IMG/VR virus record: IMGVR_UViG_3300009164_000291
Location: 1 to 27,485 of that record
Strand: one strand, 5' to 3'
Source: a virus
DNA: 27,485 nucleotides
Shown: piece after piece, positions 1-24,996 of the stretch
How the letters are laid out: each line of letters begins with the position of its first letter
Numbering within the stretch: position 1 is the stretch's first letter
Translations under genes and position numbers: made by a program
Notes under the pieces: generated by a model
Database searches by the model: none
What the model was told of the DNA's origin: nothing
Seen by the model: only the letters and a program-made list of their open reading frames with translations

Positions 1-243
1 TAATGCTGCTAGCTCATCTTGGTGTATACTTGTTATAGGAATCAACTGTCTCACCTTACAAGAATCTTTAGATTTTAATATAATAATACTTGCAGTATCT
101 ACAACACTATAATTTTTTCCAGCTATGAGTGCATCTTTAGATGCATTATCATCAATAAGATTACCAAGATCATCACTTATAGTGAATGGTCCAGATAATC
201 TTCTGCTAGATGATATTAATTTTATTAGTATTACTTTTGACAT
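1..243 (-). CDS. Start of a small beta-rich protein (3' end outside window)
   Basis: The ATG at 243 lies 13 bases after the muzzle stop, and the frame stays open for 81 codons to the window edge. The visible part, beginning MSKVILIKLISSSRRLSG, is followed by GPFTISDDLGNLID, then ASKDALIAGKNYSVVD and IIILKSKDSCK. This is the same domain as the first half of the 154-residue protein at 8705-9169, so the two are paralogues at the ends of neighbouring transcripts. It is probably a virion-associated protein. The size and the distal part are unknown because the gene is cut. Confidence 0.72.
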   Translation of the reverse strand, partial: MSKVILIKLISSSRRLSGPFTISDDLGNLIDDNASKDALIAGKNYSVVDTASIIILKSKDSCKVRQLIPITSIHQDELAAL

Positions 244-8620: not shown

Positions 8621-8658
8621 ATTATAAAATAAAACTCCCAGGGTAGAAACCCCAGGAG
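8621..8658 (-). terminator. Intrinsic terminator ending the fibre transcript
   Basis: On the minus strand CTCCTGGGGT pairs with ACCCTGGGAG (8 Watson-Crick pairs and 2 G-U pairs) around a four-base loop. The RNA then runs TTTTATTTTAT. This is the classic form of a Rho-independent terminator. It lies 46 bases after the stop of the 154-residue gene and 100 bases before the start of the metallophosphoesterase gene. Confidence 0.88.
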
Positions 8659-8704: not shown

Positions 8705-9169
8705 CTATGAAATAGCACCACAAACTGTGACACAACTAACACTTTCTGAAGTGGCATTTAATATTGCACCAGTATTAGCAGAACCACTATTACCAGTTAT
8801 TAAATATGCTGAATCATATGGTGGATCAACTGTAGTGTACCATTTACCAATAGTTAATGCAGAAGAACTTCTTACATATATATTACCTGGTCTACTAGTT
8901 CCACAAGCAGCACAATCTGTTAATGTTGCAATATAGTAGAAAGCAGGAGTTGTTCCTGATACATTTATGTCTATTTGATTCTTACATTGTCCTTGAGATT
9001 GTACTCTTATTACAGTAGTGGCAGGATCTACCTCCACTGGATATCCAGCTAGAAGATCAGACTTACTAACATTTGTTGGAGGTATAGGTATGGAATAATT
9101 TACATTTGAATATATGTTGAATGGTCCTACATCAGTACCAGCAACTGTTAATTGTACTAAAACTGTCAT
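8705..9169 (-). CDS. Small beta-rich virion-associated protein (154 residues)
   Basis: Two parts are visible. Residues 1-65 hold a beta domain (VLVQLTVAGTDVGPFNIY, then SKSDLLAGYPVEVD, then VIRVQSQGQCK). Residues 70-154 hold a second beta unit with IYVRSSSALTIGKWYTTV and a Cys-rich end (CVTVCGAIS). The first domain is clearly related to the partial gene at 1-243, which has GPFTISD, SKDALIAGKNYSVVD and IIILKSKDSCK in the same order. It is the last gene of the fibre transcript and is followed by a strong intrinsic terminator. Function is unknown; a fibre accessory or small tip protein is plausible. It ends in TAG. Confidence 0.72.
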   Translation of the reverse strand: MTVLVQLTVAGTDVGPFNIYSNVNYSIPIPPTNVSKSDLLAGYPVEVDPATTVIRVQSQGQCKNQIDINVSGTTPAFYYIATLTDCAACGTSRPGNIYVRSSSALTIGKWYTTVDPPYDSAYLITGNSGSANTGAILNATSESVSCVTVCGAIS

Positions 9170-9180
9170 ATCTATTTGGT

Positions 9181-10257
9181 TTAAAGGTTAAAGTTTGTTG
9201 TTAAAGATTGTATAGGTTGAGCTGTCCCATGTACATAATTAGTTAAATCATTAATGAATTGTACATTATAAGGACTTGATATGTTTATAGAATAAACTGA
9301 TTTTATAGCTTGATTATATTGATTATTTGCTATTATATAAATACCATTATTATATTCAAACATACCACAAGGATTCTTTATTCCCTGGGATGAAAGATTA
9401 ATATCTAGCTCTAGAGCTCCATCTGGAAAAGCATATTGTGAAATATAGAAAGTTGTAACATTATTACTCACTGTCTTATTTAAAAGAATCATCTTTTGAT
9501 CATCTACAACATTTGTTATAAAAAAATCACCCACTATTCTTCTGTTAGGTTCAATATCAAACACTTCATACCTTACAGAATCTGCATCATTTATATTTAA
9601 AACAATTAATTTAACAGGATCTGTTGATTCATCAAATGTATATATTAAACTATTATTCATTGTGAATATAGCATTTGGAAGAACTGATAGATTATTAGGA
9701 TAACGTATTTCTCTATTAAAAGATGCTGAAAATGGATTTAGTGTAATAGATGTTTCATATATCTTAGATCGATTATATAGATGTATAACATTTGGTAGAC
9801 CTTCTCCTGAACTTAAAGCTGTTCCTATTTCAGGAGAACATACATAGTTTACGAATTCTAATAATGTAGAAATTCTTGTTAATGGATTGTAATGATAAAT
9901 TTTTGAAGGAGCAATACTATTATCATTCATTAATATATAATCATTAGGAAGAGCTATTGTAGTGGTGGTAGTTGTAGTTGATGTACTAGTAGAAGTGGAA
10001 GTGGAAGAGGTACTAGTTGTAGTGGTTGGTCTTATACAAGAGCTAAGATAAGTTATAAATTCATCATTGAATGTTGGATTGTTAGTCAACTCATTAAGAA
10101 TCATATCTGTTATATTCTCATCAGTTAAAACTGCATCTATATGTTCTAATGCTAATGTAACATTTTGACCATCAAGTAGTGGTATACATGATAGTGCTTC
10201 TCCTATGTAAGAAACAAAATCTGTGTGTGTTTTTATATTACTATTACAATGTGACAT
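9181..10257 (-). CDS. Anchor, Thr linker and propeller-like adhesin
   Basis: A 358-residue protein in three parts. Residues 1-77 are the first anchor module (YIGEALSCIPL from 17) ending SSCIRP. Residues 78-100 are a Thr/Ser linker. Residues 101-358 form a beta domain with repeated strands of the type YHYNPLTRISTLL, IFTMNNSLIYTFDES, TTFYISQYAFPDGALELDI and FEYNNGIYIIANNQ. The spacing and aromatic-rich strands suggest a beta-propeller or similar repeat domain, which is inference. It would present a receptor-binding head on a flexible stalk. The gene lies directly after the anchor-only gene and 11 bases before the 154-residue gene. Confidence 0.75.
   Translation of the reverse strand: MSHCNSNIKTHTDFVSYIGEALSCIPLLDGQNVTLALEHIDAVLTDENITDMILNELTNNPTFNDEFITYLSSCIRPTTTTSTSSTSTSTSTSTTTTTTTIALPNDYILMNDNSIAPSKIYHYNPLTRISTLLEFVNYVCSPEIGTALSSGEGLPNVIHLYNRSKIYETSITLNPFSASFNREIRYPNNLSVLPNAIFTMNNSLIYTFDESTDPVKLIVLNINDADSVRYEVFDIEPNRRIVGDFFITNVVDDQKMILLNKTVSNNVTTFYISQYAFPDGALELDINLSSQGIKNPCGMFEYNNGIYIIANNQYNQAIKSVYSINISSPYNVQFINDLTNYVHGTAQPIQSLTTNFNL
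9958..10026 (-). repeat. Thr/Ser linker between anchor and beta domain
   Basis: Twenty-three consecutive Thr or Ser codons encode residues 78-100, using a mix of ACA, ACC, ACT, AGT, TCA, TCC and TCT. The tract follows Cys-Ile-Arg-Pro. Confidence 0.9.
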
Positions 10258-10467
10258 CTAATTACTTAAGTTTGAGTTCCAAATAAGCTCAATAAAATTA
10301 TTTCTAAAAGCACTGTCTGTATTCAATCTAATTATAAATTTATTAACCAAGTTTGCTGGAGATAATATACTGTCTATCTTTTGTATTATTAAAGAAAGAT
10401 CATTACATGTATTTACATTTATATTAGAAAGATCTTCTCCAATGTATATTATATCATTTGTATTCAT
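10258..10467 (-). CDS. Free-standing anchor-module protein (69 residues)
   Basis: The protein consists of little more than the first anchor module: YIGEDLSNINV at residues 8-18, then LSLIIQKIDSIL, then a helical end (FRNNFIELIW). It lines up along its length with the first 75 or so residues of the next protein (358 residues): YIGE at the motif start, ID-x-(I/V)-L in the middle and (D/N)xxFIxxI/L near the end. It has no Thr linker and no distal domain. The stop TAG directly abuts the next ATG. It may be a fibre gene that lost its distal part by deletion, or a small partner that fills or caps the same docking site. Confidence 0.68.
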   Translation of the reverse strand: MNTNDIIYIGEDLSNINVNTCNDLSLIIQKIDSILSPANLVNKFIIRLNTDSAFRNNFIELIWNSNLSN

Positions 10468-10482
10468 GTGTCAAATATTAAT

Positions 10483-12201
10483 TTATCTGTTTGTTGTAGT
10501 GCTTGTAGTTGTAGGAGCAGGAGCAACTATTACAGTGATAGTATCTGTAGCAGAACAATCAAATCCACTATTATCAGTTCCTATCACTCTATACACCCAT
10601 GTACCTGCATCTGTAGGAGTGATAGTTTCAGGAGTGTTTGCTATCATTGGTAATCTTCCAACAATTCCATTTCCTTCTATATTAAAATCATATGTATTAT
10701 ATGTTTGATTTACATATGCAACTGTTGCATTAAATGATTCACCAAGTGTAATATTATAAGTGTTAGCTAATAATGAGATTTGATCAGGCTGTATTATAGT
10801 AACATCAATTCGTACTTTTGGTCCTTCACATCCACGAAAGAAAACTTCTGATACAAACAATACAAAAATAGTTATACCATTTTCCCCTACTGCTGTATTA
10901 TATCTATTACTTGTACCTTCCTGTAAAAGATTAAGATCTGCATCATACCATCTAAATGTTGGTGTTATACTTCCAGAATTAGAACTTACTTCTGCAGAAG
11001 GATATCCATATCCACATTGTTGGTTATTGTTATTTACAGATACTGCTTGAGGAACATCATTATTTACAAACACTGTACCACTTTGTATAGCTGAACAAGT
11101 ATCATCATTCAATGTTGCTGTAAGAACAAATTCATTATCTGCAATTATAGATCTTGTAATAGTGTGACTAGGACCTGTTAAATATGTATTTCCAAATACA
11201 TCATGCCAAGAATAACCACTTGATGGTACACCTGGAGCATATGCATTTAATTGTATTGTAACATTATTTCCATCATTACATGCTTCAATTGGTGTAACAC
11301 TAAAAGTTTCTATTACAGTATATAACTTAGTTTGTATAGTTATATTTGCATATGTTCTACATTTGATATAAAATGGTTCTTGGCTATCTGGAGCTAGAGC
11401 TAGTAATGTGTATGTATAAGTTCCAGGAATTGTAGGAGTGATGGTTGGATTTCTTAATGTACTACCTGTTGGCATACCACTACCTATAGCAGGAGAGGCT
11501 GTCCATTGATATGTTACATATGGATCTGTTGTAACAGGAGTGTAGTTTAATTCAAAAGACTGTCCTAAACATGATACATCTCTTGTACTAGTGAGTGCTA
11601 TCTCTGGAGATGGTGTTACTGTTGCTACTACAAGTGTTCTTAAAGTACTTTCACATCCTTTACTATTTACAACAGATACATAAAAGTAAGTGGTTTCTGT
11701 TATAACATAATTTACTAAAAGAGCAGTGTGTTCATTTGGTATGTATTCTCCACCTGTTTCAGTTAAATACCAATTATAAGTAGGACCATAAGGAAGAAGA
11801 AAACATGTAGGAACATTAGGTCCACATTGTATAGATCCATAACCAGTTGATGTATTAATAGGAGGTTTACAAGGAACTTTAAAAAATTCATTACACATTA
11901 AACTTCCTGAATTTCCTATACAATCAAATCTTTCTGTATTATCAGGAAAGCAATCATGTGAACAATCTTCGTTATTTAAATTATTTGGAGTTTCTATACA
12001 AATTGGAATATTATCTTGTAATGCAGTGATGAATAATGACGTAACACCAGCAGGACAAATTGCTGAGTTTATAGAACTAAGAACAGATGTTAGAGATGCA
12101 TTAGTTGAAACATTAATGTTTGCTAATGCAGGTCCATTATAGACAACATCATCAGATGTCACTTCTACACTTTTACATATATCTATTCCACAATTTGTCA
12201 T
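10483..12201 (-). CDS. Adhesin with Ig-like domains and Thr tail
   Basis: A 572-residue protein. Residues 1-48 carry the first anchor module with two leading Cys (CGIDIC) and YNGPALANINV. The rest looks like several Ig/PKD-like beta-sandwich domains in a row. Typical marks are YNWYLTETGG with a paired Cys, the run YTPVTTDPYVTYQWTASP, PTIPGTYTYTLLALAP, then GYSWHDVFG, FRWYDADLN, and a last one with TPTDAGTWVYRVIGTDNSG. About five domains fit by eye. It ends in a PTTTSTTTNR tail. Such domains are common in Bacteroidota surface adhesins and in phage structural proteins, where they bind glycans or decorate the particle. A surface-binding fibre is likely. Confidence 0.78.
   Translation of the reverse strand: MTNCGIDICKSVEVTSDDVVYNGPALANINVSTNASLTSVLSSINSAICPAGVTSLFITALQDNIPICIETPNNLNNEDCSHDCFPDNTERFDCIGNSGSLMCNEFFKVPCKPPINTSTGYGSIQCGPNVPTCFLLPYGPTYNWYLTETGGEYIPNEHTALLVNYVITETTYFYVSVVNSKGCESTLRTLVVATVTPSPEIALTSTRDVSCLGQSFELNYTPVTTDPYVTYQWTASPAIGSGMPTGSTLRNPTITPTIPGTYTYTLLALAPDSQEPFYIKCRTYANITIQTKLYTVIETFSVTPIEACNDGNNVTIQLNAYAPGVPSSGYSWHDVFGNTYLTGPSHTITRSIIADNEFVLTATLNDDTCSAIQSGTVFVNNDVPQAVSVNNNNQQCGYGYPSAEVSSNSGSITPTFRWYDADLNLLQEGTSNRYNTAVGENGITIFVLFVSEVFFRGCEGPKVRIDVTIIQPDQISLLANTYNITLGESFNATVAYVNQTYNTYDFNIEGNGIVGRLPMIANTPETITPTDAGTWVYRVIGTDNSGFDCSATDTITVIVAPAPTTTSTTTNR
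10492..10512 (-). repeat. Short Thr/Ser tract at the C-terminus of the Ig-like adhesin
   Basis: Seven codons encode residues 564-570 (TTTSTTT) just before the final Asn-Arg; a Pro-rich APAP precedes them. Confidence 0.75.
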
Positions 12202-12221
12202 TTGTATTAGTTAGTTTTAAA

Positions 12222-14009
12222 TTATAATTTAACTTTTACAACATCTTCATCTCTCCATAAAGTTCCTGGAGTAAGACCTGTTGGTGATGTTGGTAGATTT
12301 CTAAATATATTCTTTTCAGCATTAAATATATTTGTATCTTTTGTTCCAAAACCAGCATCACTAATATCTCCTTGAACTATACCATAAGACTTTGTAATTG
12401 TTCCTTTTCCTGGAGTTCCATTAACATATCTTTGTAAGCTTTCAATCCATAAACCTATACAATTACTTATTGTTCCATAATATGCAGGAACAATAGGGTT
12501 TCCACTAACAGCTGAAGGAACTGATGGAGAAGTTGCTCTAAATGCAACATATGTAGTTAAATTAGTAGGAGTGGTTGATATATAATCATATTTTAAAACA
12601 GGAATAGTAGAAATAGTTGTTCCCCAACTAGCTGGTGTAGTTCCTGTTGCTACAAAATAAGTTCCTTGATTATTGTTAGGTGCTCCTACATTTGTAAAGT
12701 TCATTCCTGATGAAACTCTATTTATAGTGTAACCTTGTCCAATTATTAATACACCACTACTGATTCCTAAAGTTTCAGGTTCTCTTTGAAAAATACCATT
12801 TGCAACAACTCCACATAATGTACCAGTTATACTAGCAGCTGGAGCAAAATAAACACCACCACTAACTCCAGCCATATAACCATATTGAAAGTCTACATTT
12901 TGTGTAACTCTAGTTCCAGATAATGCAGCACCTCCAGAAAGTCCATTCATTGAATTAATATTAGCAATAAGTGGTTCTATTGTATTTAATAAATATACTT
13001 CACTACCTGTAGTTCCATAACCACTACCAGCTATATTTCTTGGATCAATTGCATTATATACAAATAATTTTTGACGTGTATTATCAGTACGATTGAAACC
13101 ATATTGATCATATCCAATAGCAACACAGTTACCAAAATAAGTATCACCTGCAAACTCATTATGATCAAGTGAACCTTTTTGTTGAATACCATAAGAGTAA
13201 GTAGTATTTGTATTAATAACAGTGTTTGTTCTTTGATTATCAATTCTCAATCCTACTAATTCAGAAATAGTTCCAGTGTAAGGGGAGTTAGCATCTGATA
13301 CAGGAGGCATGATTCTATTATTAATAAAAATATCAATACTTGAATTATAAATAAAATAACCTTGTGATGCTGTTGCAGATATATTTCCATAAGATGTTAC
13401 TTTTGAACCATCATGTGCTCCAAAAATAAAACGGTTAAATCCAGCTGTATAATAAGCCTCTGATGATGAACTTGCTTCTATAGAAGTTTTTGCAGGATAA
13501 AAATTAAATAAATTTGATCCACCAGCTAGTGATAAAGAACTAGATAGATTTCCTTGAGTTACATCTTGATACAAACTAAAACTAGTAAAAGTTGCACTAA
13601 GTCCTGAAGAAGAAATTGGAAATCTTGTCTCTATTTTTTTATCAAAAGTTAAATTTTTGCCAGCAATATCTATTTTTGTATCTTCCAATAGTGTTCCACC
13701 TAAGTAAACTGCACTACTTCCTGTAGCACTTAACTTTAATCCATTATCTGCAGATATTTCTGATCCTAATGTTTTTGGAATAAGATTTGTATCTTCTATA
13801 CCATCTCTATACCAATATTCTGTAAATGTTCCACCAGTTAGTTTTATTCCTACAGTGAGACCTATATGTCTTTGTGGTTTAAGAATAGCACCATTAGCTA
13901 ATTCTTTTGTTTCATAGTAACCAGTTGCTCCAAGTATATTAACACCATATCTATTATCTAAAGGTTTACTAGATATAGTGTTAATGTTGTCATTTAAATT
14001 TATTGCCAT
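12222..14009 (-). CDS. Tail fibre with two YGI-Q modules
   Basis: A 595-residue protein. Residues 1-72 carry the second anchor module (PLDNRYG from 16, GLTVGI, EYWYRDG). Residues about 95-120 hold an LGG linker (VYLGGTLLEDT). The middle is beta-rich and Gly/Ala/Ser-rich. A module of form 'Leu-x-Ile-(Asp/Glu)...YGI-x-Q...Phe' occurs twice: near 250-290 (SYGIQQKGSLDHNEFAG) and near 520-560 (KSYGIVQGDISD, then TNIF). The end, TGLTPGTLWRDEDVVKVKL, is a short tip motif recalled from other Bacteroidota phage fibres. No enzyme residues are recognisable. A side-fibre adhesin role is likely. Confidence 0.75.
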   Translation of the reverse strand: MAINLNDNINTISSKPLDNRYGVNILGATGYYETKELANGAILKPQRHIGLTVGIKLTGGTFTEYWYRDGIEDTNLIPKTLGSEISADNGLKLSATGSSAVYLGGTLLEDTKIDIAGKNLTFDKKIETRFPISSSGLSATFTSFSLYQDVTQGNLSSSLSLAGGSNLFNFYPAKTSIEASSSSEAYYTAGFNRFIFGAHDGSKVTSYGNISATASQGYFIYNSSIDIFINNRIMPPVSDANSPYTGTISELVGLRIDNQRTNTVINTNTTYSYGIQQKGSLDHNEFAGDTYFGNCVAIGYDQYGFNRTDNTRQKLFVYNAIDPRNIAGSGYGTTGSEVYLLNTIEPLIANINSMNGLSGGAALSGTRVTQNVDFQYGYMAGVSGGVYFAPAASITGTLCGVVANGIFQREPETLGISSGVLIIGQGYTINRVSSGMNFTNVGAPNNNQGTYFVATGTTPASWGTTISTIPVLKYDYISTTPTNLTTYVAFRATSPSVPSAVSGNPIVPAYYGTISNCIGLWIESLQRYVNGTPGKGTITKSYGIVQGDISDAGFGTKDTNIFNAEKNIFRNLPTSPTGLTPGTLWRDEDVVKVKL

Positions 14010-14027
14010 TATGTTAGGTTTTATTTA

Positions 14028-17000
14028 TTAAGTGTATGATATAATTCTCCAGTCTGTTCCAGTATAGTATTCAAATCTATTGTCTTGAGTGTTATAAAAT
14101 AATTCACCCTGTTGTGCATCTGAAGGTCTACCAGCAGTTCCATAATACTGTGCCACTCTAATACCTCTTCTAGAACCTCTTTGATCTATCTGTGTATTAA
14201 CATTCATTGATTTACCATTCACCTCTACCAAACCCTGATCAGGTCTTCCATCAACAGTTCCTTCAGTTGCAATAACAGAAGCATATTTATCACTTGGTGA
14301 TACATAAGGATAAACTCCTTGAACAATAGAACCACTTGTCCATACTGCTGGTGAAACTCCATTTGATGTAAATGCCCATCCTGTTTGGTTAGAACTACCT
14401 TGTAAAGTTGTTCCTATACCATTACCAAAATTATCTCCACCTAATTTACTTACTAATTTATATCTATTACCATTATCTAGTAAATTACGTCCAGTGTATA
14501 TCTCAGTTTGGTCATAATAGTTAGCAATAACAGAACCATTTGTCCACGTTGTTGCTGTATATGTTCCAGTTCCTGCCACTTTAAATACCCATCCTTCTTC
14601 ACCAGCTGTTCCTGCTATTAATGAATAATTAGGGATTAAAGGAATATTAGCAAAGCTATCTGTGGAATATTGTTTTTTAGACTTTAATATATAAACTTTA
14701 TTATCTCCTTTAGTAAGAGTATATTTATTATTATAAGTTTGAATCCATAAATGATCACCAACTCTTTCATCATAGTAGTGAGCTAACTGAGAACCAGTTG
14801 TATTTGTTAATACAGTATTTTCAAAAATTTGAAAAGATTGAACATCAGTAGGTAACCATGTATTTGCAGCTTTATATCTTTCATAAGCTTTATATGCACT
14901 ACTAGTGTAATTTGTTGTAAATAATTCACTAGATGGTTTAGTTATAGTAAAATTACTAAGACTTCCAGCTCCATCTATAGTATCAGGAGAGTCTCTTAGT
15001 ACACTTGTGATATAGTTTTGGTTAAAGTCATACTCAGCTACTTTTACACCACTAGCAGTAGTAGAATATAAAACATTACTATCAACAACATTTAAACTAT
15101 TATTTATATATGTAGGCCCTTCAAATATATTTGTATCAGGAGAACCAGCCTGTACAATCCCATATGTTTTACTTATAGGAAAAGCTATTGTATCTTGTGA
15201 ATCTATGTATATACCTGCAGCTTGTGTTAAAGTTCCTCTAAAGTCAATATCTTTTATAGGAGATGTCACTCTTATTCCAATTAATCTATTAATTGTACCA
15301 AATCCTGTAAAATTACTTGATGTAGTTAATGAAGTGAGAGCACTATTATAATCTAATATATCTACATTTGCATTACCAATAGTATTATTTGCACTACTAC
15401 CTATATAATCCATATTACTAATAAGACCAGCATGATATGATGTAGGATCAAATAACTGTGTAGTGGGATTTTTTGGTGCTTCTAATTCGAAAGAATATTT
15501 AGAAACCAGTCCTGCAAAATTAGTATTAGCATTTGTATCACCACCAGTTACAAATCGAACTTTTGCTAAAGTTCCAACATTAAATTTATTTGCAGAAGTA
15601 GCTATTGCACCATTATTTAATAAAGTTAAAAGATGATTGTTGTCATTATTAGTTATTGTAGTGGAGGCTTCTGTTAATACTCCACCTAATTTTATATCAT
15701 TTGTTCCACTCAATCCATTACTACCTGTTGCTGTAGTAACTATATCTGTTATATCTGTTTTAGTTAATTGATTACTTTCACCAATAGAAACTACATATGT
15801 AGGTGTTTCATTAACAACAAGTCCAGCTATAGTGAGTGTATTTGTTGCATTGGTTGTAATAGTTCTTGCTGAAGTAAGTGTTCCTCCAAGTTTTATATTA
15901 CTACCTGTTGATTTAGTAACACCATCATCAGCTGTAATACCTGATGCTGTGATATATGCATTACTATCTAAACTACCATCTCCTTTTACAAATTGACTAG
16001 AGGTTCCTGATATATATGATATTGCGCCAGATGCAGATTTAACTATTCCACTTCCTAATAGAGGTGCTTGATATGCTGTAGATACAGATATAATTCCATC
16101 AGTAGTAACATTTACACCTGATCCAATTTTTACACCACCTAATACAACTGATGTAGCTACAGGTACTGTAGTAGATATATTCCATGTTCTATCAGTAGAA
16201 AGATCTTGTTTAGTTCCATTTATTGTAATATTTCTAGCAGTTGGAGTGTATTCAGTACTATCATAAGATATAGTTGTACCACTTGCCTTTACAAATCCTG
16301 TACCATTAAGCTGAGTTTGTCCTCCTAATCCTGATAGAGTGTATGTAGGGACATTTAACACTCCTGATGTTAATGTACTTGATCCATTATTTCCTGTTAC
16401 AGTGAGAGATGTAAACAGTGCACTTTGAGGAGTTGGTATATTTAATACATTATTTACTAAAGTGGCTACTCCTGAACCTGTAGTTGTTAGACTTGTTATA
16501 CGATTATTATAAGCTGTATTCCAATTATTAGCTGAAGTTATTCTATCATCTGCTAGTTTACCATTCCATGTAAGAGTATGAGAGGTTCCTGAGGATACCA
16601 TTTGAACATTGGTATCACTAACAAAAGATTGTGTTGTTCCAGTTAATCCACCTAATGATACTATAGCAGAAGTTAAATATGCAGTAGCATCTGTTGACCA
16701 AGTTCCACTTGTATATCTTAATAATCCATTAGCAGGTGTTGTTACATAATAAGGAACTTTTGTAATGTCTATAGCAACACTACCAGATGTAGTGAATGTT
16801 GTAAAGCTCATACCTGTTCCTGCAGCTACACTTGTCACTGTACCACCACCACCAGTTATAGCTTGTGTACTAAGTACACCATCAGAATTTACAGTGACCA
16901 TTTTTACAATTCCTCCTGTTGCTAATCTAGGAAGAATAGTGCTAGTACCATCATCTTTAAATCTAACATTACCATCACCATCTGCTAGTAATATCCAATT

Positions 17001-18425
17001 ATTTGTACCACTAGGAAAAGTTGTAGATATTATATTACTACCTATTATTGTATTTTTATTACCAGTGGTAAATGAAGTACCTGTATTATACCCTATAAAT
17101 ATATTTGAATCACCAGATATTATATCAAAACCTGTAGAACTACCTAATATTGTATTATAACTACCTGTTCCTCTTCTAAATGCTGAACGTCCAATAACAG
17201 TATTATCACTTCCAGTAACAATACCATTACCAGAATTATATCCTACTGCAGTATTATTATTTCCAGTTGTATTACTATATAGTGCTCTTGATCCTATAGC
17301 AGAGTTAAGTTGACCAGATGTATTACTAAAATTTGCAAAAGGTCCTACACTAATATTATAAGTACCAGTTATATTATTTTGAAGTGCACTAGTTCCAATA
17401 GCTATATTATTATAACCTGTAGTATTTTTATAAAGAGCATATGAACCAAGAGCTGTATTATTATAACCACTTGAGTTTGCTGCTAAAGTACCAGGACCAA
17501 CACCTGTATTATATTTTCCACTAACACTATCAGTATTAGTAGAAAAAATATTATATTTACCAGTATTATTACCTATAAATAAATTATCTGAATAATTATT
17601 TCTTATTTCTGTTATTATAGTTTCACTACTATCAAGTAATTTAGTTGAAGGTATACTTGGAGTAATTATTTGTTTTACACTAATAATAATAGTACCAGCA
17701 AAATTATTTGTTGGTGTAATAACAAGTCCAGCAGTTGAATCAGTTACTTTTGGAGTAAAAGTATTTGATTTATAATGATCAATTTGAGAAGTATAGTCTA
17801 CAGATCTGTAAGTTTCTCCACCAAATGTAAGTTGAAATGAACCAGCTGTTCTAGTTACAGTGAAAGATATATAATAGTATTCTCCGGCAGTTGGAAGAAA
17901 AGAATTAGTTAATGGTAGTACAGGTCCTGCTGCATGAACCCATCCACTATCAAAGTTACCTGTCCATCCAGCAGAATTCCATCCTGTTGCTACTAATTCA
18001 ACTCCAAGAGTTGGTGTATCAGATTGAATGCTACCTTTAAAACTTTTTAAACCAGCAATAGTTTGAGCTGCTGTTGTAAGTATTCCAGGATTACTACCAT
18101 CAGCTGGACTTAATTGTAAACTGTTTCCAGATATAGTAGCAGCTTTAGAATCAGAAGTTGTATTGACATTTCCCATTGCTAATGTCTGTCCTGTTGCATT
18201 TTTTTCTACTAAATCAGCTTCAACATTTATATCATCTTTAAACCAATATTCTTTAACACCATTTCCATCAGCTATAGCAACTGTAAGACCTTTATATCTA
18301 AGACCTATTGCTACATTATCGATAACATCTTTTTTATTAATATAAGGAACTGTACCATTAAAGTATTTAGAATCTAATGGTATTTGTTGACCAACTATTA
18401 TATTATCTGATAATTGTATTGACAT
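14028..18425 (-). CDS. Giant tail fibre with 17-residue repeat region
   Basis: A 1465-residue protein. Residues 1-70 carry the second anchor module (PLDSKY at 16-21, GLTVAI, EYWFKDD). Residues 307-458 are nine tandem repeats of 17 residues of the type TALGSYALYKNTTGYNN, which resemble adhesin-head or beta-roll repeats. Residues about 510-900 are Gly/Ser/Thr-rich shaft with SVAAGTGMSF, then paired segments with LxxxxxGVLNVPT. Two LGG linker motifs (IKLGGTL and IKLGGVL) precede a YGIVQ module near 1085-1095. The last 35 residues (GRPSDAQQGELFYNT, then RFEYYTGTDW) form a terminal cap seen in other Bacteroidota phage fibres. No S74 chaperone triad is evident. It is likely the main long adhesion fibre. 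Confidence 0.78.
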   Translation of the reverse strand: MSIQLSDNIIVGQQIPLDSKYFNGTVPYINKKDVIDNVAIGLRYKGLTVAIADGNGVKEYWFKDDINVEADLVEKNATGQTLAMGNVNTTSDSKAATISGNSLQLSPADGSNPGILTTAAQTIAGLKSFKGSIQSDTPTLGVELVATGWNSAGWTGNFDSGWVHAAGPVLPLTNSFLPTAGEYYYISFTVTRTAGSFQLTFGGETYRSVDYTSQIDHYKSNTFTPKVTDSTAGLVITPTNNFAGTIIISVKQIITPSIPSTKLLDSSETIITEIRNNYSDNLFIGNNTGKYNIFSTNTDSVSGKYNTGVGPGTLAANSSGYNNTALGSYALYKNTTGYNNIAIGTSALQNNITGTYNISVGPFANFSNTSGQLNSAIGSRALYSNTTGNNNTAVGYNSGNGIVTGSDNTVIGRSAFRRGTGSYNTILGSSTGFDIISGDSNIFIGYNTGTSFTTGNKNTIIGSNIISTTFPSGTNNWILLADGDGNVRFKDDGTSTILPRLATGGIVKMVTVNSDGVLSTQAITGGGGTVTSVAAGTGMSFTTFTTSGSVAIDITKVPYYVTTPANGLLRYTSGTWSTDATAYLTSAIVSLGGLTGTTQSFVSDTNVQMVSSGTSHTLTWNGKLADDRITSANNWNTAYNNRITSLTTTGSGVATLVNNVLNIPTPQSALFTSLTVTGNNGSSTLTSGVLNVPTYTLSGLGGQTQLNGTGFVKASGTTISYDSTEYTPTARNITINGTKQDLSTDRTWNISTTVPVATSVVLGGVKIGSGVNVTTDGIISVSTAYQAPLLGSGIVKSASGAISYISGTSSQFVKGDGSLDSNAYITASGITADDGVTKSTGSNIKLGGTLTSARTITTNATNTLTIAGLVVNETPTYVVSIGESNQLTKTDITDIVTTATGSNGLSGTNDIKLGGVLTEASTTITNNDNNHLLTLLNNGAIATSANKFNVGTLAKVRFVTGGDTNANTNFAGLVSKYSFELEAPKNPTTQLFDPTSYHAGLISNMDYIGSSANNTIGNANVDILDYNSALTSLTTSSNFTGFGTINRLIGIRVTSPIKDIDFRGTLTQAAGIYIDSQDTIAFPISKTYGIVQAGSPDTNIFEGPTYINNSLNVVDSNVLYSTTASGVKVAEYDFNQNYITSVLRDSPDTIDGAGSLSNFTITKPSSELFTTNYTSSAYKAYERYKAANTWLPTDVQSFQIFENTVLTNTTGSQLAHYYDERVGDHLWIQTYNNKYTLTKGDNKVYILKSKKQYSTDSFANIPLIPNYSLIAGTAGEEGWVFKVAGTGTYTATTWTNGSVIANYYDQTEIYTGRNLLDNGNRYKLVSKLGGDNFGNGIGTTLQGSSNQTGWAFTSNGVSPAVWTSGSIVQGVYPYVSPSDKYASVIATEGTVDGRPDQGLVEVNGKSMNVNTQIDQRGSRRGIRVAQYYGTAGRPSDAQQGELFYNTQDNRFEYYTGTDWRIISYT
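17052..17507 (-). repeat. Nine tandem 17-residue (51-base) repeats inside the giant fibre
   Basis: The repeats run from residue 307 to 458. Eight are 17 residues and one is 16. The pattern is (T/I)-x-(I/V/L)-G, four to five variable positions including Ala, a polar stretch, T/S-G, then x-x-N. Examples are TALGSYALYKNTTGYNN and SAIGSRALYSNTTGNNN. A tenth partial unit (TIIG) follows. The strict period and Gly/Asn positions suggest a repetitive beta-coil, as in trimeric adhesin heads. DNA identity between units is moderate, so the repeats are old. Confidence 0.9.
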
Positions 18426-18428
18426 ATA

Positions 18429-20069
18429 TTATGAATTTCTCAATTGGATTTCAGTATTAGTATTTGTAAGAATTGGACTTATATGTATTGTATAATCTAT
18501 ATTTGTCCAATATGATTCATGAGAACTACAAGATAAATCAGTTCCTGAATCAAAAGGAGAAGTCTTACTTGTTAAAAGTCCTTTATCAAGTTCAGTTACA
18601 TAATAGAATGTTTTTTTTGTAGATGTAGCAGGATAGGCTACAGACATATATTGACCATTTGGTGCATAAGGAATTTTTAATGTTCCTGTAGAATCTTTTA
18701 CTACTTTTGTAGCTGTTCCATCATTTATAGCTTCTTGCATGTCAGCAGCAGTTATTTTTGAATCCCTTTTATAATAGTAATATGGATAGAGTCCTGTAAA
18801 AGAAGTGGATTGTGAAGCTGATGTTCCTGCAGGATATGGACTATCATAATCAGCACCTTTACTATCTTTAGGTTGAGGTCCTACTAAATAGGTGACTGTT
18901 CCACTAAATGTATTTGAACCATTTAGTACTTCATAATTAGATTTAGTTAATGTATTTTGTTGTTGTTGTGTTCCAGTTATTGTATAATAAGAAAGATTTC
19001 CTGTTCTATAGTTTTGAAGTGCAGTAGGATTCCAAATATCATTTACTAATTTTCCTTCAATCTTACCTTTATTAAATGCAAAAGTTAATACAAAAGATAT
19101 TCTTGATCCTACTTCTGATGGATTAGTAGCATCATTACTTAAATCAAATGATGGAGGTATAAATGTAGGAGTGAATGTTGTTAATAATAACTTTTCTACA
19201 AAATCTTGTAATGTTGTTCCTTTAGCTATTGTTTGTTGTGCCTTTATTGCACCAACTTGTAAATTTGACTTTATATCTAAAGTGGTAGCTCCACTATTAA
19301 GACTACCAATATATTCAGTTAAAGCACTTACAGAAGGATAGTTAGTAGTATTATTAGGATCATCAGTTATTTGTTCTTTACTGGTAACTTTATTAAGTAC
19401 ATTTTCTGGAGTGAATCCTAAGCCTACATCTAGAATATCCCATTTAGTATCATCTTGTCCTGGAGTATTATCAATAGCTCTTACACTAGAACCTACAGCA
19501 ACAGGTGTTCCACCAAGAGTACCTGCTACACTAATAAAAAAAATATCTCCTTTTAATATAGCACCAGCTTCTCCACTTCCACGAACATTAGGATAGATAT
19601 TTCCAGATGCATCCCAATTACCTCTATCATTTAATAACCCAACCACTAAACCATCAGCATAAGTTTTTGTTGCTTTTACAGAGGGATATTTAGTATCACT
19701 TGTAGCAGTATTTGCAGCATCAGTAACTATATTAGTAGAAAGATTACTAGTGATCTGTACTACAGCAGTATCTATTGAAATTGAAGGGGCTTGAGGAGTA
19801 GTATTACTTACACTAATACCATTGCCTTGTGAAATACTTGTAATACCATTATTGCTATTACTTTTTTTCTTAACAAGGGTATCAACATTAGTTTCATACC
19901 AATATTCAACAACAGAACTACCTTCTATTACACCCACTGTAAGACCAATATATTTTTCTGTTGTAGGAATAGAAGAATTAGCTACTACATCAGAAGTATA
20001 TGGACCATACCTATTATCAAGTGGTTTAGGAGATATGGTTCTAATATTATCGTTAAAATTTATTGCCAT
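18429..20069 (-). CDS. Tail fibre / adhesin, second anchor type with shared C-terminal domain
   Basis: A 546-residue protein. Residues 1-70 carry the second anchor module: NDN at 6-8, PLDNRYG from 16, then GLTVGV and VEYWYE. The middle (about 75-290) contains fibre-like repeats around SNLSTNIVTDAANTATSDTK and DDPNNTTNYPSVSALTEYI, two related segments with a YPSV(K/S)A core. Residues about 300-546 form the C-terminal domain shared with the 509-residue protein (TGLYPYYYYK, then YWTNIDYTIHISP near the end). It is probably a receptor-binding fibre. It starts 3 bases after the previous stop and ends 3 bases before the next start, so it is clearly cotranscribed. Confidence 0.75.
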   Translation of the reverse strand: MAINFNDNIRTISPKPLDNRYGPYTSDVVANSSIPTTEKYIGLTVGVIEGSSVVEYWYETNVDTLVKKKSNSNNGITSISQGNGISVSNTTPQAPSISIDTAVVQITSNLSTNIVTDAANTATSDTKYPSVKATKTYADGLVVGLLNDRGNWDASGNIYPNVRGSGEAGAILKGDIFFISVAGTLGGTPVAVGSSVRAIDNTPGQDDTKWDILDVGLGFTPENVLNKVTSKEQITDDPNNTTNYPSVSALTEYIGSLNSGATTLDIKSNLQVGAIKAQQTIAKGTTLQDFVEKLLLTTFTPTFIPPSFDLSNDATNPSEVGSRISFVLTFAFNKGKIEGKLVNDIWNPTALQNYRTGNLSYYTITGTQQQQNTLTKSNYEVLNGSNTFSGTVTYLVGPQPKDSKGADYDSPYPAGTSASQSTSFTGLYPYYYYKRDSKITAADMQEAINDGTATKVVKDSTGTLKIPYAPNGQYMSVAYPATSTKKTFYYVTELDKGLLTSKTSPFDSGTDLSCSSHESYWTNIDYTIHISPILTNTNTEIQLRNS

Positions 20070-20072
20070 AAA

Positions 20073-21602
20073 TTATTGTGGAGAAACTTCGTTTCTAAAT
20101 TCAAAAGTTGCATCATTAGCTGCAAAGGTAGCAAAAAGTGAAGTGTATATTTTGTATTTAACACCAGTCCAATATGGATTAGGATTACTATGTAAAAGTT
20201 TATCTTCAATTCTGTTAAAAGTTTTACCTGGTCCTATTCCACCTCGATTACTAGTAGTTACATACCATGATTGTTTAGCATCACATACATCAGGATGAGC
20301 AAACCATAAATATTTAGAAGTTGTATTACCAAAGTTAATTTTAATAGTATTTGCTGATGATTCTAAAACTTTTTTACAAAGAGTTCCATTATTTACATTA
20401 TAATTATTTATAAGAGTTGCAATTTCTTCAGAAGTAGGAGGTGTAGCTGAATCAGGATTATTTGTAGAAATTCCCCAGAAATATGGATAGATACCTGTTA
20501 TTGTTTTTGCATCACTATCAAGTGTAAAGTCTGTAGATTGTTCTTGTGGAGCATTTGTTTTTCTTACATCAAAAGCTGTAGGATCTGGTTCATTCTTACT
20601 TGTTTTTTTCTTTAATCCTCTACCGTATGTTCCATAAACTTTATAATAATAAGTGACATCTGTTCCACTTGTGACTGGTTCTATTGTAAGAGCTTGAGTG
20701 AAAGCACTAGTTGGTGCATAAGTGTAGTTTTTACTATTTGGATCATCAAATCCAAATTGTGATCCAAATACAGCTCCTTCTGTACCTTGTAAATTTGTAT
20801 ATAGTATTTGTTGTGCATAAGTTCCACTATCATACTTTTTTCTAGAAACACGAAGTGCTTGAAATGCACCAGCATCCCATCTATATCCTGTAGGTGTAAA
20901 TGAAATATTTTGTACAGTTCCAATCTCAACAGGACTAGCTGGTAAAGAACCTACTATAAGTATTTCAGGAATTTTATAAGTGGGAAGTTGTAAAGGGAAT
21001 AATATTATATCTAATACTTCAACTAAATTTTTTGTTTTCCAAAAACTTGCTTCTTTAGGAGCTGCTCCACCAACTTGTACAGATGTAACAGTATCTGTAA
21101 CCAATGTATTATAAAGTGTTGATAGAGTGTCATGACCTGTATTTATAGTAAGTCCTACATTATCAGCTACATTTATTTGAGGAGATAAAACTGATGTTGA
21201 TGAATATTTTATAACACCATTACTATCTCTTGTTAATATAAATGTAGGAGTTGTTTCTGATTGTAATCCAGCAAGTGTAAGAGTGTTTGTTGCATCTGTG
21301 GTGATTGTTGTTGGTGTTATTAATGGACCACCAAGAGTTATTGTATTTGTGTAAAGATCTTTTGCAAGACCATTATTTGCATCAACAGTGAATGCAGGAT
21401 TATTACAAACTATATTATCAAGTTTTTGTATAGCTAAACATAAACTATCATCATTTTGAATACCTGAACATGCAAGATTTGGTCCTATATATTTAACTGT
21501 TTCACAGCTTATAACATTAGAACCTTCACAACCTGTTGTATTTGGATCTATGTAAAAAGCTGATTGTATATTATAACAAGGGTTACAAGAAGAACATGAC
21601 AT
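20073..21602 (-). CDS. Tail fibre / adhesin, first anchor type with shared C-terminal domain
   Basis: A 509-residue protein. Residues 3-9 are Cys-rich (CSSCNPC). The anchor motif spans 38-63 (YIGPNLACSGI, then LCLAIQKLD). Residues about 75-140 are a fibre linker with TITLGG and NTLTLAGL, a motif shared with the 1465-residue fibre. From about residue 195 a large beta-rich domain includes TGIYPYFWGIS, then LWFAHP, then YWTGVKYKIY near the end. The same domain, much diverged, ends the next protein (546 residues) although that protein has a different N-terminus. No signal peptide or enzyme motif is present, so a receptor-binding fibre is likely. The downstream gene starts 3 bases after the stop. 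Confidence 0.75.
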   Translation of the reverse strand: MSCSSCNPCYNIQSAFYIDPNTTGCEGSNVISCETVKYIGPNLACSGIQNDDSLCLAIQKLDNIVCNNPAFTVDANNGLAKDLYTNTITLGGPLITPTTITTDATNTLTLAGLQSETTPTFILTRDSNGVIKYSSTSVLSPQINVADNVGLTINTGHDTLSTLYNTLVTDTVTSVQVGGAAPKEASFWKTKNLVEVLDIILFPLQLPTYKIPEILIVGSLPASPVEIGTVQNISFTPTGYRWDAGAFQALRVSRKKYDSGTYAQQILYTNLQGTEGAVFGSQFGFDDPNSKNYTYAPTSAFTQALTIEPVTSGTDVTYYYKVYGTYGRGLKKKTSKNEPDPTAFDVRKTNAPQEQSTDFTLDSDAKTITGIYPYFWGISTNNPDSATPPTSEEIATLINNYNVNNGTLCKKVLESSANTIKINFGNTTSKYLWFAHPDVCDAKQSWYVTTSNRGGIGPGKTFNRIEDKLLHSNPNPYWTGVKYKIYTSLFATFAANDATFEFRNEVSPQ

Positions 21603-21614
21603 AGTATATTAATT

Positions 21615-21722
21615 TTATTGAGTTGTGGTTGTTGTTGTTGTGGTTATGCATTTTTTATTTACATAACAACTTTTTGGATAGTAGACAGTTATTGTCTCAC
21701 ATTTATAATTAGAATTACGCAT
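21615..21722 (-). CDS. Tiny Cys- and Thr-rich protein (35 residues)
   Basis: The ATG at 21722 overlaps the end of the 369-residue gene by 8 bases in another frame, and the TAA is at 21615-21617, 12 bases before the next gene. The product begins MRNSNYKCETITVYYPKSC and ends KKCIT7Q, so three Cys precede an eight-Thr tract. The join Cys-Ile-Thr(n) is the same as in the 385-residue virion protein, and the ACA/ACT-based tract lies in frame, so this looks like a real gene rather than chance. It may be a minimal linker-tailed protein or the remnant of a fibre that lost its distal domain. Confidence 0.6.
   Translation of the reverse strand: MRNSNYKCETITVYYPKSCYVNKKCITTTTTTTTQ
21621..21644 (-). repeat. 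Eight-Thr tract ending the 35-residue protein
   Basis: Eight consecutive Thr codons (ACC, ACA x4, ACC, ACA, ACT) follow Cys-Ile and precede the final Gln. Confidence 0.8.
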
Positions 21723-22824
21723 TTGGAATATACATTATGTAGTAACAACCAATTCCTGGTTGATAGTTATTATGAGGTTGATTTCCACCTTGTGTTGCAA
21801 CATTTACACTTACACTAACAACAGTATCTGATGTATTTTGTTTACTGTAAGCAGTAATATTACCACCAGTACCCCAACCTCTATTTAGATAAGGATCTCC
21901 ACCTCCATAGAAACTATATAAACTTTCACTACCTTGTATATGATGGTGAGGTTGAGCTGTTGCAGTAGTTCCTGGATGAGTGTGAGAAGGCAAGTTATCA
22001 ACTACTAATGACACCTTATTAGCTCCTTGTAGTGATCCTTTTACATAAGTGGGATTACCTGATGTTGCAGGATCAACAGCTGGATAGTAATTATAAGCTC
22101 CCATAGAGCCATCTGTAGCACCTACAGCAACAACACCTCTTCTATCTGGTGTTCCATTCTGACCATTACATAAATACACTTGTTCCCAAACTCCTGTTCC
22201 TATACCTGTTCCACCAAATCCTGCAAGATTTCCATAATATTCATAAGCAACATATGGAACCATTTTTAAATAGTTCTTATTCTCTGGTGTTTGTGAAGAT
22301 AGGTATATAGCAATTAATTCATTAAGATTTTCTGTCTTTACATAGTTTGTTTCAAGATCATATCCAAGAGCTGCAACATCTGTAATTAATTGACAAACTT
22401 TATCAACTAATGCCATCACTACATCTTTAATTGTAGGATTTTCTGGAAGAATTAAACACATTGTATCACAACATCCAGATGTGCAATAGTTATTTAAAGA
22501 TTCTACTGTTGTTGCTAATGTAGTCACTTGTGTTTGAAGATCGCATGATGCATCTTTTAATGCTTTGAAAAGATCAAGTGCTGTGATGTTGTTTACATTA
22601 GGAAGATATTTAGAAACTATCTCACAAAGTTCACTTGGTGAAATAGCTAATTTAATACCTGTAGCATCTAAAGTGGATTGTAAATAAGTAGAAAGTTGTT
22701 GTTCTACATGTAATAATGTATCTCCATTACTTATTCCCAGAGATGGAATATCTACTCCAGTGTATCTTACACATTTATCAGAAACTGTTTGTGCACAGCC
22801 ATTATAACAATTTGTACAGCTCAT
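21715..22824 (-). CDS. Short tail fibre with phage tail-collar-like C-terminal domain
   Basis: A 369-residue protein. Residues 3-18 are Cys-rich (CTNCYNGC). Residues 21-48 hold the array's first anchor motif (YTGVDIPSLGI, then an amphipathic stretch). Residues 50-190 are helical or mixed. The C-terminal third resembles the phage tail-collar domain found in short tail fibres: LCNGQNGTPDRRG (after W-E-Q-V), LPSHTHPG near 275-282, PHHH soon after, and the closing QPHNNYQPGIGCYYIMYIP. In T4-type fibres, HxH motifs near such a domain bind metal ions along a trimer axis; SHTH and PHHH could do the same here, though that is inference. It probably acts as a host-binding fibre. Its stop overlaps the next small gene by 8 bases. 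Confidence 0.8.
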   Translation of the reverse strand: MSCTNCYNGCAQTVSDKCVRYTGVDIPSLGISNGDTLLHVEQQLSTYLQSTLDATGIKLAISPSELCEIVSKYLPNVNNITALDLFKALKDASCDLQTQVTTLATTVESLNNYCTSGCCDTMCLILPENPTIKDVVMALVDKVCQLITDVAALGYDLETNYVKTENLNELIAIYLSSQTPENKNYLKMVPYVAYEYYGNLAGFGGTGIGTGVWEQVYLCNGQNGTPDRRGVVAVGATDGSMGAYNYYPAVDPATSGNPTYVKGSLQGANKVSLVVDNLPSHTHPGTTATAQPHHHIQGSESLYSFYGGGDPYLNRGWGTGGNITAYSKQNTSDTVVSVSVNVATQGGNQPHNNYQPGIGCYYIMYIPNA

Positions 22825-23091
22825 TTATTTGAATTTTAAAAGTTTAACCCTACTAGCTATCATTTCTACACTATAAGAACATAAATATTCTTCATTACAT
22901 AATCTATATGTTAATATTCTTTTGTAATTTAATAGATCATTTATTGCTACACTATTTATTGATTTGTTTAATGCAAACGCAATATTATTATATAAATTGT
23001 TAGACAATTCATAAAGCTTATCATCAATATCTGATAATAAAGCAGGAATGCTAGAACATTCTACACAATTTGTTAATCTTATTGATAACAT
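22825..23091 (-). CDS. Small conserved helical protein
   Basis: An 88-residue protein beginning MLSIRLTNCVECSSIPALL, with CVEC near the start and a helical middle (DDKLYELSNNLYNNIAFALN), ending in a basic VKLLKFK tail. It starts 5 bases after the 30-residue Cys protein, and its TAA directly abuts the ATG of the next gene. With the 187- and 30-residue proteins it forms a compact set that I associate with crAss-like structural blocks. No enzyme motif or membrane segment is visible. A small virion or assembly protein acting with its neighbours is the most that can be inferred. Confidence 0.7.
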   Translation of the reverse strand: MLSIRLTNCVECSSIPALLSDIDDKLYELSNNLYNNIAFALNKSINSVAINDLLNYKRILTYRLCNEEYLCSYSVEMIASRVKLLKFK

Positions 23092-23190: not shown

Positions 23191-23754
23191 TTAATAAAAG
23201 TTGGTTAGATAATTATTACCAGAGCACTGACATCCATTAGCCATAAAATTACTAAGCATTTTACTTGCTTGATTGTATAATTTATTTGCTTGATTTATTG
23301 CACAGTTATTAGCAGCTGCAATTGCACCCTGTATGAAAAAGTAAATACTATTTAATTCTACCTTCTGTTGTGTCTTGATAGCAAGATCACATTCCATCAT
23401 ATCTAATTTCATAAATGCTTCATCAAATCTCTCTTGTAATTGCTCAACACGCATTATTGATTTTTCTACAAAGTTTGTAAATGAAGGAGTTACAGAATAT
23501 CTTAAAAAATAAACACCATCAGGAAGAGGAGTGATTGGATCTCCTACAGTAGTTAGTCCAAGTGATGTTGAATTAAATATATTAAAATCATTAGGAGTAA
23601 ATGGAAGAATCACCTTATCAAATCCAGGAACTGTTATCTCAATTGTAGGAACTGTTACAGGAGGATATGGAGGATATGTAGAAGCATCAGCCACACCTAA
23701 TGTTCTTGAGTCATAGGTGGGAAGTACTAATATGTCTAGTTTTAAATATACCAT
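23191..23754 (-). CDS. Conserved crAss-like structural protein
   Basis: A 187-residue protein. The N-terminal half is beta-like and Pro-rich (STYPPYPPVTVPTIEI). The C-terminal half is helical (EKSIMRVEQLQERFDEAFMK, then NSIYFFIQGAIAAANN) and ends in a CQCSGNNYLTNFY tail. I recall a protein with this two-part design and the same SIMRV, KLDMMECD and NNCA motifs in many crAss-like and related Bacteroidota phages. Its role is not known to me; a tail or fibre-attachment part is inferred from its place at the head of the fibre array. It begins just after the terminator and is followed after one base by the 30-residue Cys protein. No membrane segment is convincing, as the FFIQGAIAAANN stretch is short. 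Confidence 0.78.
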   Translation of the reverse strand: MVYLKLDILVLPTYDSRTLGVADASTYPPYPPVTVPTIEITVPGFDKVILPFTPNDFNIFNSTSLGLTTVGDPITPLPDGVYFLRYSVTPSFTNFVEKSIMRVEQLQERFDEAFMKLDMMECDLAIKTQQKVELNSIYFFIQGAIAAANNCAINQANKLYNQASKMLSNFMANGCQCSGNNYLTNFY

Positions 23755-23838: not shown

Positions 23839-24996
23839 TTAAGGAATCGGAGTAGCAGTTGTTGTTGTAGTGCTAGTTGAATATGATGTTGTAGTAGTTG
23901 TAGTGATACAAGAATTATCACCAGTAGCAGCTCCTAAAGCAGCACTCAATATAGCATACAAATCAGTTTCTTCAGTACTACCTTTTATAACAGCAATTAT
24001 TACCATTGAATCTTCATGAATGTAATCACCCCATTGGTAAGCTGATTTATCATACTCATTAAATTTAATGTAATAAGTGTTATAAATAGCAGTATCACTA
24101 GTTACCCAACTTTCAAAGTTTTGATTGTAACCAGCCATTCTATAAAGATGCTTCAAATAACCAGCTTGGTAGCTGGAGAAGTTTTTCTCTAATTGTCTAA
24201 TCTCATCAGCAGTTCCATCAGGATAAGAAGAACGTTGAGTGATAGTAGAAGTAGCAACAATGTTACAATTGTCATCAACAATGAAATCAGCAGTTGTAGC
24301 AGGACCAGAATAAACAAAAGTACGGAAGTACATTCTGTCATATTCATAAGGGAATGCAGCAACGTCACTAGGAACACCATACTTATTTAATGGTTTACCA
24401 GAAATACGTAAGATTGTTCCTCCAAAATTTTCAAAATTGTAGAAAGTGCTGAAGCTAATGTTATCTGGATTATCACCAGGAGCAGCTGCAGTTAATTTTG
24501 CAATAAATTGATTAATTAAAGCATTTGTGTCAACTGTATCACATGGATCACCACCACAGTCACAACAAGGAGCTTGTACAGTTACTGAACGTGTAAAACC
24601 ATTGAAGTACAATGTATCAATGTAAGAAGAGTGTGCACGTAATGTTAAAGTTACGATATCACCACATTTTACATTCCAGTTAGATACATCAGTGATTTGA
24701 ACAGCAGATGTGCCACAACCAGTTACTTTGTACCATTCTGTTACATTAGTTCCAGAACCAGCATTGTTTTTACCAGAGATCTTATCAGATCTTTTGGTTC
24801 CTTGTAAATAAGTGTTACTTCTACCTTGTGCAATGTAGAAATAAGGTGCTGCAGCAATGTTACCAAAAGTAGCTACAGAATAATCATTTTTGAAGACACC
24901 TAATTTACCAGCTATTAAAGCTTGTGTAGATCCAGAACTAGCAATTCCACTGCCACTGGGAACTACGAAGAGGGTAGTTAATGAAAAATCAGACAT
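23839..24996 (-). CDS. Abundant virion protein, probable auxiliary capsid protein
   Basis: A 385-residue, beta-rich protein starting at ATG behind a classic Bacteroidota-style leader (AATTAAATATAAACAAA) without a Shine-Dalgarno sequence. A Cys cluster (APCCDCGGDPCDTVD) sits near residues 142-156 between two beta-rich halves. The last 21 residues are a Thr/Ser tract ending TATPIP. Half of its 10 Arg codons are CGT, a bias otherwise seen here only in the major capsid gene, so I infer a high-copy product. Placement two genes after the capsid protein and a dedicated terminator behind it fit an auxiliary capsid or decoration protein as described for crAss-like virions. An alternative is another abundant tail protein. 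The Thr-rich tail could be an exposed linker or glycosylation site. Confidence 0.68.
   Translation of the reverse strand: MSDFSLTTLFVVPSGSGIASSGSTQALIAGKLGVFKNDYSVATFGNIAAAPYFYIAQGRSNTYLQGTKRSDKISGKNNAGSGTNVTEWYKVTGCGTSAVQITDVSNWNVKCGDIVTLTLRAHSSYIDTLYFNGFTRSVTVQAPCCDCGGDPCDTVDTNALINQFIAKLTAAAPGDNPDNISFSTFYNFENFGGTILRISGKPLNKYGVPSDVAAFPYEYDRMYFRTFVYSGPATTADFIVDDNCNIVATSTITQRSSYPDGTADEIRQLEKNFSSYQAGYLKHLYRMAGYNQNFESWVTSDTAIYNTYYIKFNEYDKSAYQWGDYIHEDSMVIIAVIKGSTEETDLYAILSAALGAATGDNSCITTTTTTSYSTSTTTTTATPIP
23851..23904 (-). repeat. Thr/Ser tract at C-terminus of the 385-residue protein
   Basis: Eighteen codons, mostly ACA/ACT, encode residues about 365-382: Thr and Ser with one Tyr and one Ala. 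The tract begins straight after Cys-Ile and is followed only by Pro-Ile-Pro. Confidence 0.85.

Follow-up and report, generated by a model that had tools for sequence, protein, structure and literature searches.

A proposed two-tier adhesin operon in a crAss-like phage, with a lineage-specific anchor and a portable adapter–guest gene pair

How a single virion could hold the products of a long run of adhesin genes is the question raised by the DNA analyzed here, a stretch of 27,485 bases (the window) that makes up the full IMG/VR record IMGVR_UViG_3300009164_000291 and holds all its structural genes on the minus strand. An initial annotation had described eight open reading frames between positions 9181 and 22824 as a fibre array built on two families of N-terminal module, A (369, 509, 572, 69, and 358 residues) and B (546, 1465, and 595 residues), each loading interchangeable adhesins onto its own virion docking site and all encoded as one transcript. 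All eight reading frames are present at those lengths, and the A and B families are real, but in our best reading they do not represent two equivalent virion docks. The matter bears on how crAss-like phages carry many adhesins and switch host; in the structure of phicrAss001, the outer fibre assemblies were too flexible for good resolution (PMC10172136).

The phage, its hub slot and the order of the array

The window contains a tail module of the Crassvirales type, with a muzzle protein, multiple ring proteins and an IHF-like protein in conserved order. The 1621-residue muzzle protein is of the gp44 type (PHROG match, E 1e-108), the ring proteins R242 and R325 match phicrAss001 gp40 (5e-53) and gp43 (1e-28), the IHF-like R157 matches gp42 (2e-37), and p322 and p243 correspond to gp33 and gp34/35, all in the same order as in phicrAss001. 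This virus is a crAss-like phage, far from gut isolates. Another gene, p385 (23839-24996), lies in the slot of gp36 and shows a weak, non-significant alignment to it around RMAGYN/RGMGYPN.

Two genes adjoining the array lie in the positions of tail hub proteins A and B (Table 1). On the basis of synteny and fold, p187 is probably a homolog of gp38. Its AlphaFold model (pLDDT 86) was matched by Foldseek to a protein of phage phi17:2 (E 3e-14) and to proteins of the crass-phages cr118_1 (E 4e-4) and cr128_1 (E 4e-3), the last two with a probability of 1.0, and the cr128_1 match (167 aa) has the same length as the gene annotated as gp38-like in the THA slot of that phage. The sequence relationship to gp38 is weak (hhalign 18%, the best of 21 proteins); against the PDB, the model gave only fibronectin-III/Ig-like matches over residues 1-104, and 7qoj chain G was not among the matches listed. 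The neighboring p88 occupies the THB slot in 139 of 155 loci and gave no profile match to gp39. In some relatives (L062, L070, L072, and L019) p88 carries an extra Thr/Ser linker and an adhesin-like distal domain, which suggests that the putative hub itself can display decoration.

Table 1. Features of the array and its surroundings
Feature	Positions	Strand	Description
Second module C protein	1..243	-	Follows the muzzle gene; truncated at the edge of the window
Intrinsic terminator after the array	8635..8658	-	Hairpin
p154	8705..9169	-	Module C N-terminus; last gene of the array
A358	9181..10257	-	Module A, 23-residue Thr/Ser linker (78-100), distal domain
A69	10258..10467	-	Module A alone, nothing attached
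A572	10483..12201	-	Module A, Ig-like CHU_C/PKD domains, Thr/Ser tract at the end
B595	12222..14009	-	Module B, distal domain (190-570); no adapter immediately upstream
B1465	14028..18425	-	Module B, hexapeptide-like repeats at 281-426 (tail-spike PHROG), long distal part
B546	18429..20069	-	Module B N-terminus, with a further adapter domain of its own (about 285-546)
A509	20073..21602	-	Module A, LGG-type shaft repeat (73-140), adapter domain (about 140-505)
Adapter C-terminal half (A509 residues 337-509)	20076..20594	-	Proposed socket for module B (A6 alignment)
A369	21715..22824	-	Module A (residues about 15-50) and conserved collar-like C-terminal domain; PHROG tail protein matches
p88	22825..23091	-	Slot of tail hub protein B (THB, gp39), from synteny
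p187	23191..23754	-	Probable homolog of tail hub protein A (THA, phicrAss001 gp38), from synteny and fold match

Among the 104 related loci that contain both flanking genes, the array opens with p88 and a fixed A protein (about 370 residues), continues with more genes of types A, B or C, usually a C gene in the last place, and is followed by an exonuclease gene; other kinds of gene inside these arrays number only 11. The array of the window is the longest at 14.3 kb, the others spanning 0.9-7.6 kb as partly limited by the 10-kb flank. The extent first given to it was one gene short, since p154, with an N-terminal module of a third family (C) that had been overlooked, precedes the conserved terminator. 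A terminator-like hairpin follows the array in 91 of 92 distinct homologous regions, compared with 19 in a shuffled control. Both gene spacing and this terminator are compatible with one transcript, but promoter-like sites occur at chance level (99 vs. 97.4 by chance) and the claim of a single promoter was rejected. In one related locus (L001, 4626-7390) a single A protein lies between p88 and the exonuclease gene, where the window has nine genes, and its exonuclease is 91% identical to that of the window while its A369 orthologue is just 39% identical, indicating that the region is a mosaic.

Three families of N-terminal module and a pool of distal domains

Module A has an N-terminal core of about 35 residues. 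In leave-one-out profile searches, it was recovered above chance in A509 (E 4e-6), A69 (1.5e-7), A572 (1.5e-4), and A358 (2e-3), the best of 2735 decoys scoring E 0.08-0.9. The fifth protein assigned to the family, A369, was missed by the profile of the other four (E 170) and is without the (I/L)-(D/N) ending; it was rescued by profile-profile comparison only, in which A369-type N-termini (n = 144) aligned with all other A modules (hhalign 95%, E 2e-8; each of 12 control families at most 12%), and we assign it to module A on that comparison. Starting from the five sequences of the window, a profile search collected 161 A proteins from 81 loci in its first round and 173 once it had converged, and in every one the module lies inside the first 60 residues. 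Across related loci, it is present in 153 of 155 as 309 copies, every one of them N-terminal. Some relatives encode bare A proteins of 69-127 residues; the AlphaFold model of A69 is a small, mainly helical unit (pLDDT 93) and the module A model had no useful match in the PDB.

The three module B proteins of the window share invariant P16-L17-D18, GLTV, and EYW motifs, and each was found by leave-one-out search (E 2e-17, 5e-11, and 6e-19). The module is about 80 residues long and starts at residue 1-5 in 120 of 125 proteins. It is rare among crAss-like relatives and common in unrelated phages: an IMG/VR scan with module B returned 77 loci outside the crAss-like lineage, the longest of their contigs measuring 365 kb. 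The lineage's own A, C, p88, p187, ring and muzzle genes were absent from all 77. Family C comprises 131 proteins of 60 to 928 residues in 71 of the first loci, the module covering residues 1 to about 110. Relatives have up to six C copies per locus, including bare copies of 72-85 residues, and many of them have a conserved C protein of about 288 residues after the muzzle gene.

The distal parts of the array proteins, first said to differ almost completely, are in fact partly shared. A509 73-140 aligns with B1465 830-897 (42%), A509 363-488 with B546 419-531, and B1465 1044-1113 with B595 224-298. Moreover, a single domain family is found on A, C, p88, and muzzle anchors (best pairs about 57-62% identity), the A358 distal domain resembles the muzzle C-termini of relatives (E about 1e-17), and the B595 distal domain is also carried by A-headed fibres of relatives. 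The idea of interchangeable adhesins holds insofar as common N-termini bear exchanged distal parts, but it does not extend to A369, which is a fixed gene and not an interchangeable adhesin, its type being the first array gene in nearly all of the 104 loci.

Runs of at least 10 Thr/Ser residues occur in A (47/173), C (30/131), p88 (15/65), muzzle (33/78), and p385 (7/61) proteins but are absent from the ring, IHF, exonuclease, p187, p243, and p322 proteins and from the B proteins (0/12). Cross-anchor distal alignments begin within 12 residues of such a tract in 40 of 59 cases for p88 (12.8 expected from random starts), 40 of 62 for muzzle (12.9), 35 of 64 for C (9.2), and 38 of 93 for A (11.5). 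Slippage of ACN repeats was rejected as the source of the tracts: adjacent Thr codons are identical at a frequency of 0.351 against 0.349 expected, and since codon choice is independent within runs the tracts look like protein-level linkers rather than microsatellites. A joint at the DNA level was likewise rejected as the sole route of swapping, the A-B sharing starting at a B-side tract in 0 of 27 cases. Within the window, tracts are found as linkers or at the extreme C-terminus in the products of 9181-10257, 10483-12201, 257-5122, and 23839-24996. Across the set of loci, the C-terminus lies no more than 8 residues from a tract in 122 proteins of the fibre, hub, muzzle or p385 kinds (e.g., TTTTTTTI). 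Among the close loci L027-L031, A105 and A309 have one anchor and differ by a distal domain gained or lost at a Thr/Ser tract. A full-text literature search found nothing on threonine-rich tail proteins in crAss-like phages.

Pairing of the adapter domain with module B

The C-terminal half of the A509 adapter domain is present in 7 of the 7 adapter-covering B loci of the lineage and in 73 of the 77 B loci of other phages; across 32 members of the family PHROG gave a single weak match, and the PDB gave no relative. In the 104 complete crAss-like arrays, the adapter accompanies B in 4 of 4 cases and is found in none of the 100 arrays that are without B. In the other phages, the adapter gene lies upstream of B on the same strand in those 73 loci, with a gap of at most 38 bp in 67 of them, and these adapters bear dozens of unrelated N-termini. 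The reciprocal scan with the adapter gave 49 new loci, 48 of them with B 5-46 bp downstream and the remaining one stopping at a contig edge. Counted by gene, 114 of 117 adapters have B as the next gene, as do 17 of 17 adapters that are themselves B-headed, like B546. The numbers of adapters and B genes are equal in most loci (1:1 in 88, 2:2 in 40, 3:3 in 8), and in 17 loci a lone adapter is accompanied by two B genes. A B profile made from crAss-like proteins alone recovered B in the same loci (75/76). The pairing is therefore close to obligate in both directions. The distances among 127 adapter domains correlate with those of their B modules at 0.63, whereas re-pairing within loci gave 0.516 (sd 0.018) and reached 0.63 in 0 of 500 trials, so that adapter and B co-vary beyond locus ancestry.

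These pairing data are genetic, and it is conceivable, though unlikely in our judgment, that the two proteins form a functional pair other than socket and plug, for example with the adapter as a folding or assembly helper for B, or with the two co-inherited for reasons of expression. A spacing of 0-46 bp is compatible with a co-translated chaperone, and co-duplication of the adapter-B gene pair could equally yield the covariation within loci. However, adapters carry varied N-termini that are of fibre type or lineage-specific, as is module A here, and the adapter domain forms the end of 26 of 239 B-headed proteins, which fits a structural part of the virion better than a soluble chaperone.

The original proposal of two independent virion docks, with A on one and B on another, agrees with the N-terminal position of both modules. 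Module A stands as a plausible anchor, but the second dock appears improbable because B occurs in phages without any tested virion gene of the lineage and nearly only alongside the adapter; it is absent from 100 of the 104 arrays, all of them adapter-less. Since B nearly always follows an adapter and is found in phages lacking the virion genes of this lineage, we infer that B fibres dock on the adapter at the tip of A509 and not on the crAss virion. It is similarly improbable that modules A and B are trimerization caps or registration elements and that other parts dock, a role that the small helical A69 model and the existence of bare A and bare C proteins would suit but that gives no reason for a cap to be lineage-specific, as A is, or tied to one partner domain, as B is.

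The proposed attachment scheme and known branched adhesins

The module families, the grammar of the array, the near-obligate adapter-B pairing, the covariation of cognate partners and the sharing of domains across anchors were all observed directly, and they are probably best explained by a two-tier adhesin operon in which A proteins anchor to the virion, the adapter tip offers sockets to B proteins and C closes the operon. In the first tier, module A would hold the fixed A369 and the variable A509, A572, A69, and A358 on the virion, the likeliest site being the tail-hub collar that the neighboring p187 and p88 encode. Module A is the best candidate for virion docking in view of its position beside the hub genes and its lineage-specificity, being absent from all 77 B loci of other phages. 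In the second tier, the distal adapter domain of A509 would be the socket for module B N-termini. B546 would plug into A509 and act as both guest and host, its own adapter copy offering a socket to B1465, so that the predicted chain runs from the virion through A509 and B546 to B1465. B595, which like the second B gene of several relatives is without an adapter of its own, would be an extra B fibre; two guests may share an adapter, or B595 may attach elsewhere. Distal domains would be swapped among anchors, often at Thr/Ser linkers, and the adapter and B may travel between unrelated phages as a two-gene unit by a change of the adapter N-terminus.

We lean somewhat towards the view that the adapter and module B make up an undescribed and portable plug-and-socket system, unrelated to T4gp10, in crAss-like and very large uncultured phages. 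Searches of Pfam and of the named PHROGs gave no entry for the pair. By tblastn with the adapter and B against 50,697 phage records, the sole match was a weak one to the adapter in a faecal phage that is itself uncultured, and scans of bacterial genomes with each confirmed no relative and gave no prophage or host clue; from this near-absence, the pair looks like a feature of uncultured phages. If the system is real, a phage that fuses its own anchor to an adapter domain would tap a common pool of B adhesins. The logic of attachment would then be readable in genomes as a lineage-specific anchor, an adapter-guest pair able to move between phages, and a set of distal domains common to the anchors, and the pair offers a defined candidate protein-protein interface as well as a marker for annotating receptor-binding proteins (RBPs) in environmental phages.

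Among named phages, Cellulophaga phage phi17:2 and Leptolyngbya phage Lbo-JY46 have ring proteins and p187 homologs in common with this lineage and encode A-headed proteins of 774, 669, and 814 residues (E 8e-8, 2e-7, and 6e-6); their array content is different, and no module B was detected in the regions read. In phicrAss001, the tail-fibre hub consists of THA gp38 and THB gp39, and the fibre gp22 docks on it (PMC10172136). The virion genes of the window are collinear with those of phicrAss001 (gp33, gp34/35, the hub slot, gp40, gp42, gp43, gp44), and p187 is predicted to share its fold with a Steigviridae protein whose length and slot mark it as the gp38 homolog. The fibre genes are placed differently, between the hub genes and the gp40 homolog here and between the portal and capsid genes in phicrAss001, and the N-terminus of gp22 has no detectable profile similarity to module A.

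The closest functional parallel is with the anchor-branch RBP systems of phages G7C, K1-5, KP32, the Menlow group, and CBA120, in which a first RBP has a T4gp10-like docking domain and a second attaches to it through a conserved N-terminus (PMC6872550). The window likewise has a guest with a conserved N-terminal module beside a host protein with a conserved candidate docking domain. Common to both are a virion-anchored first protein, its docking here being read from the genes, multi-protein chains, here predicted, adjacent genes, and exchangeable distal parts. Guests cut down to the anchor are also known there, as in KpV767 (69 residues), and may be compared with the bare A69. In contrast, the anchor-branch socket is T4gp10-like and close to the N-terminus of the first protein, whereas the candidate socket here is a C-terminal domain, with no T4gp10 match in Pfam or PHROG for A509 or 8 other adapters, and the guest module of about 80 residues is unlike those systems. 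By this analogy, and with physical docking predicted from the arrangement of the genes, the adapter-B array would be a form of branched adhesin system, wired differently from the initial annotation.
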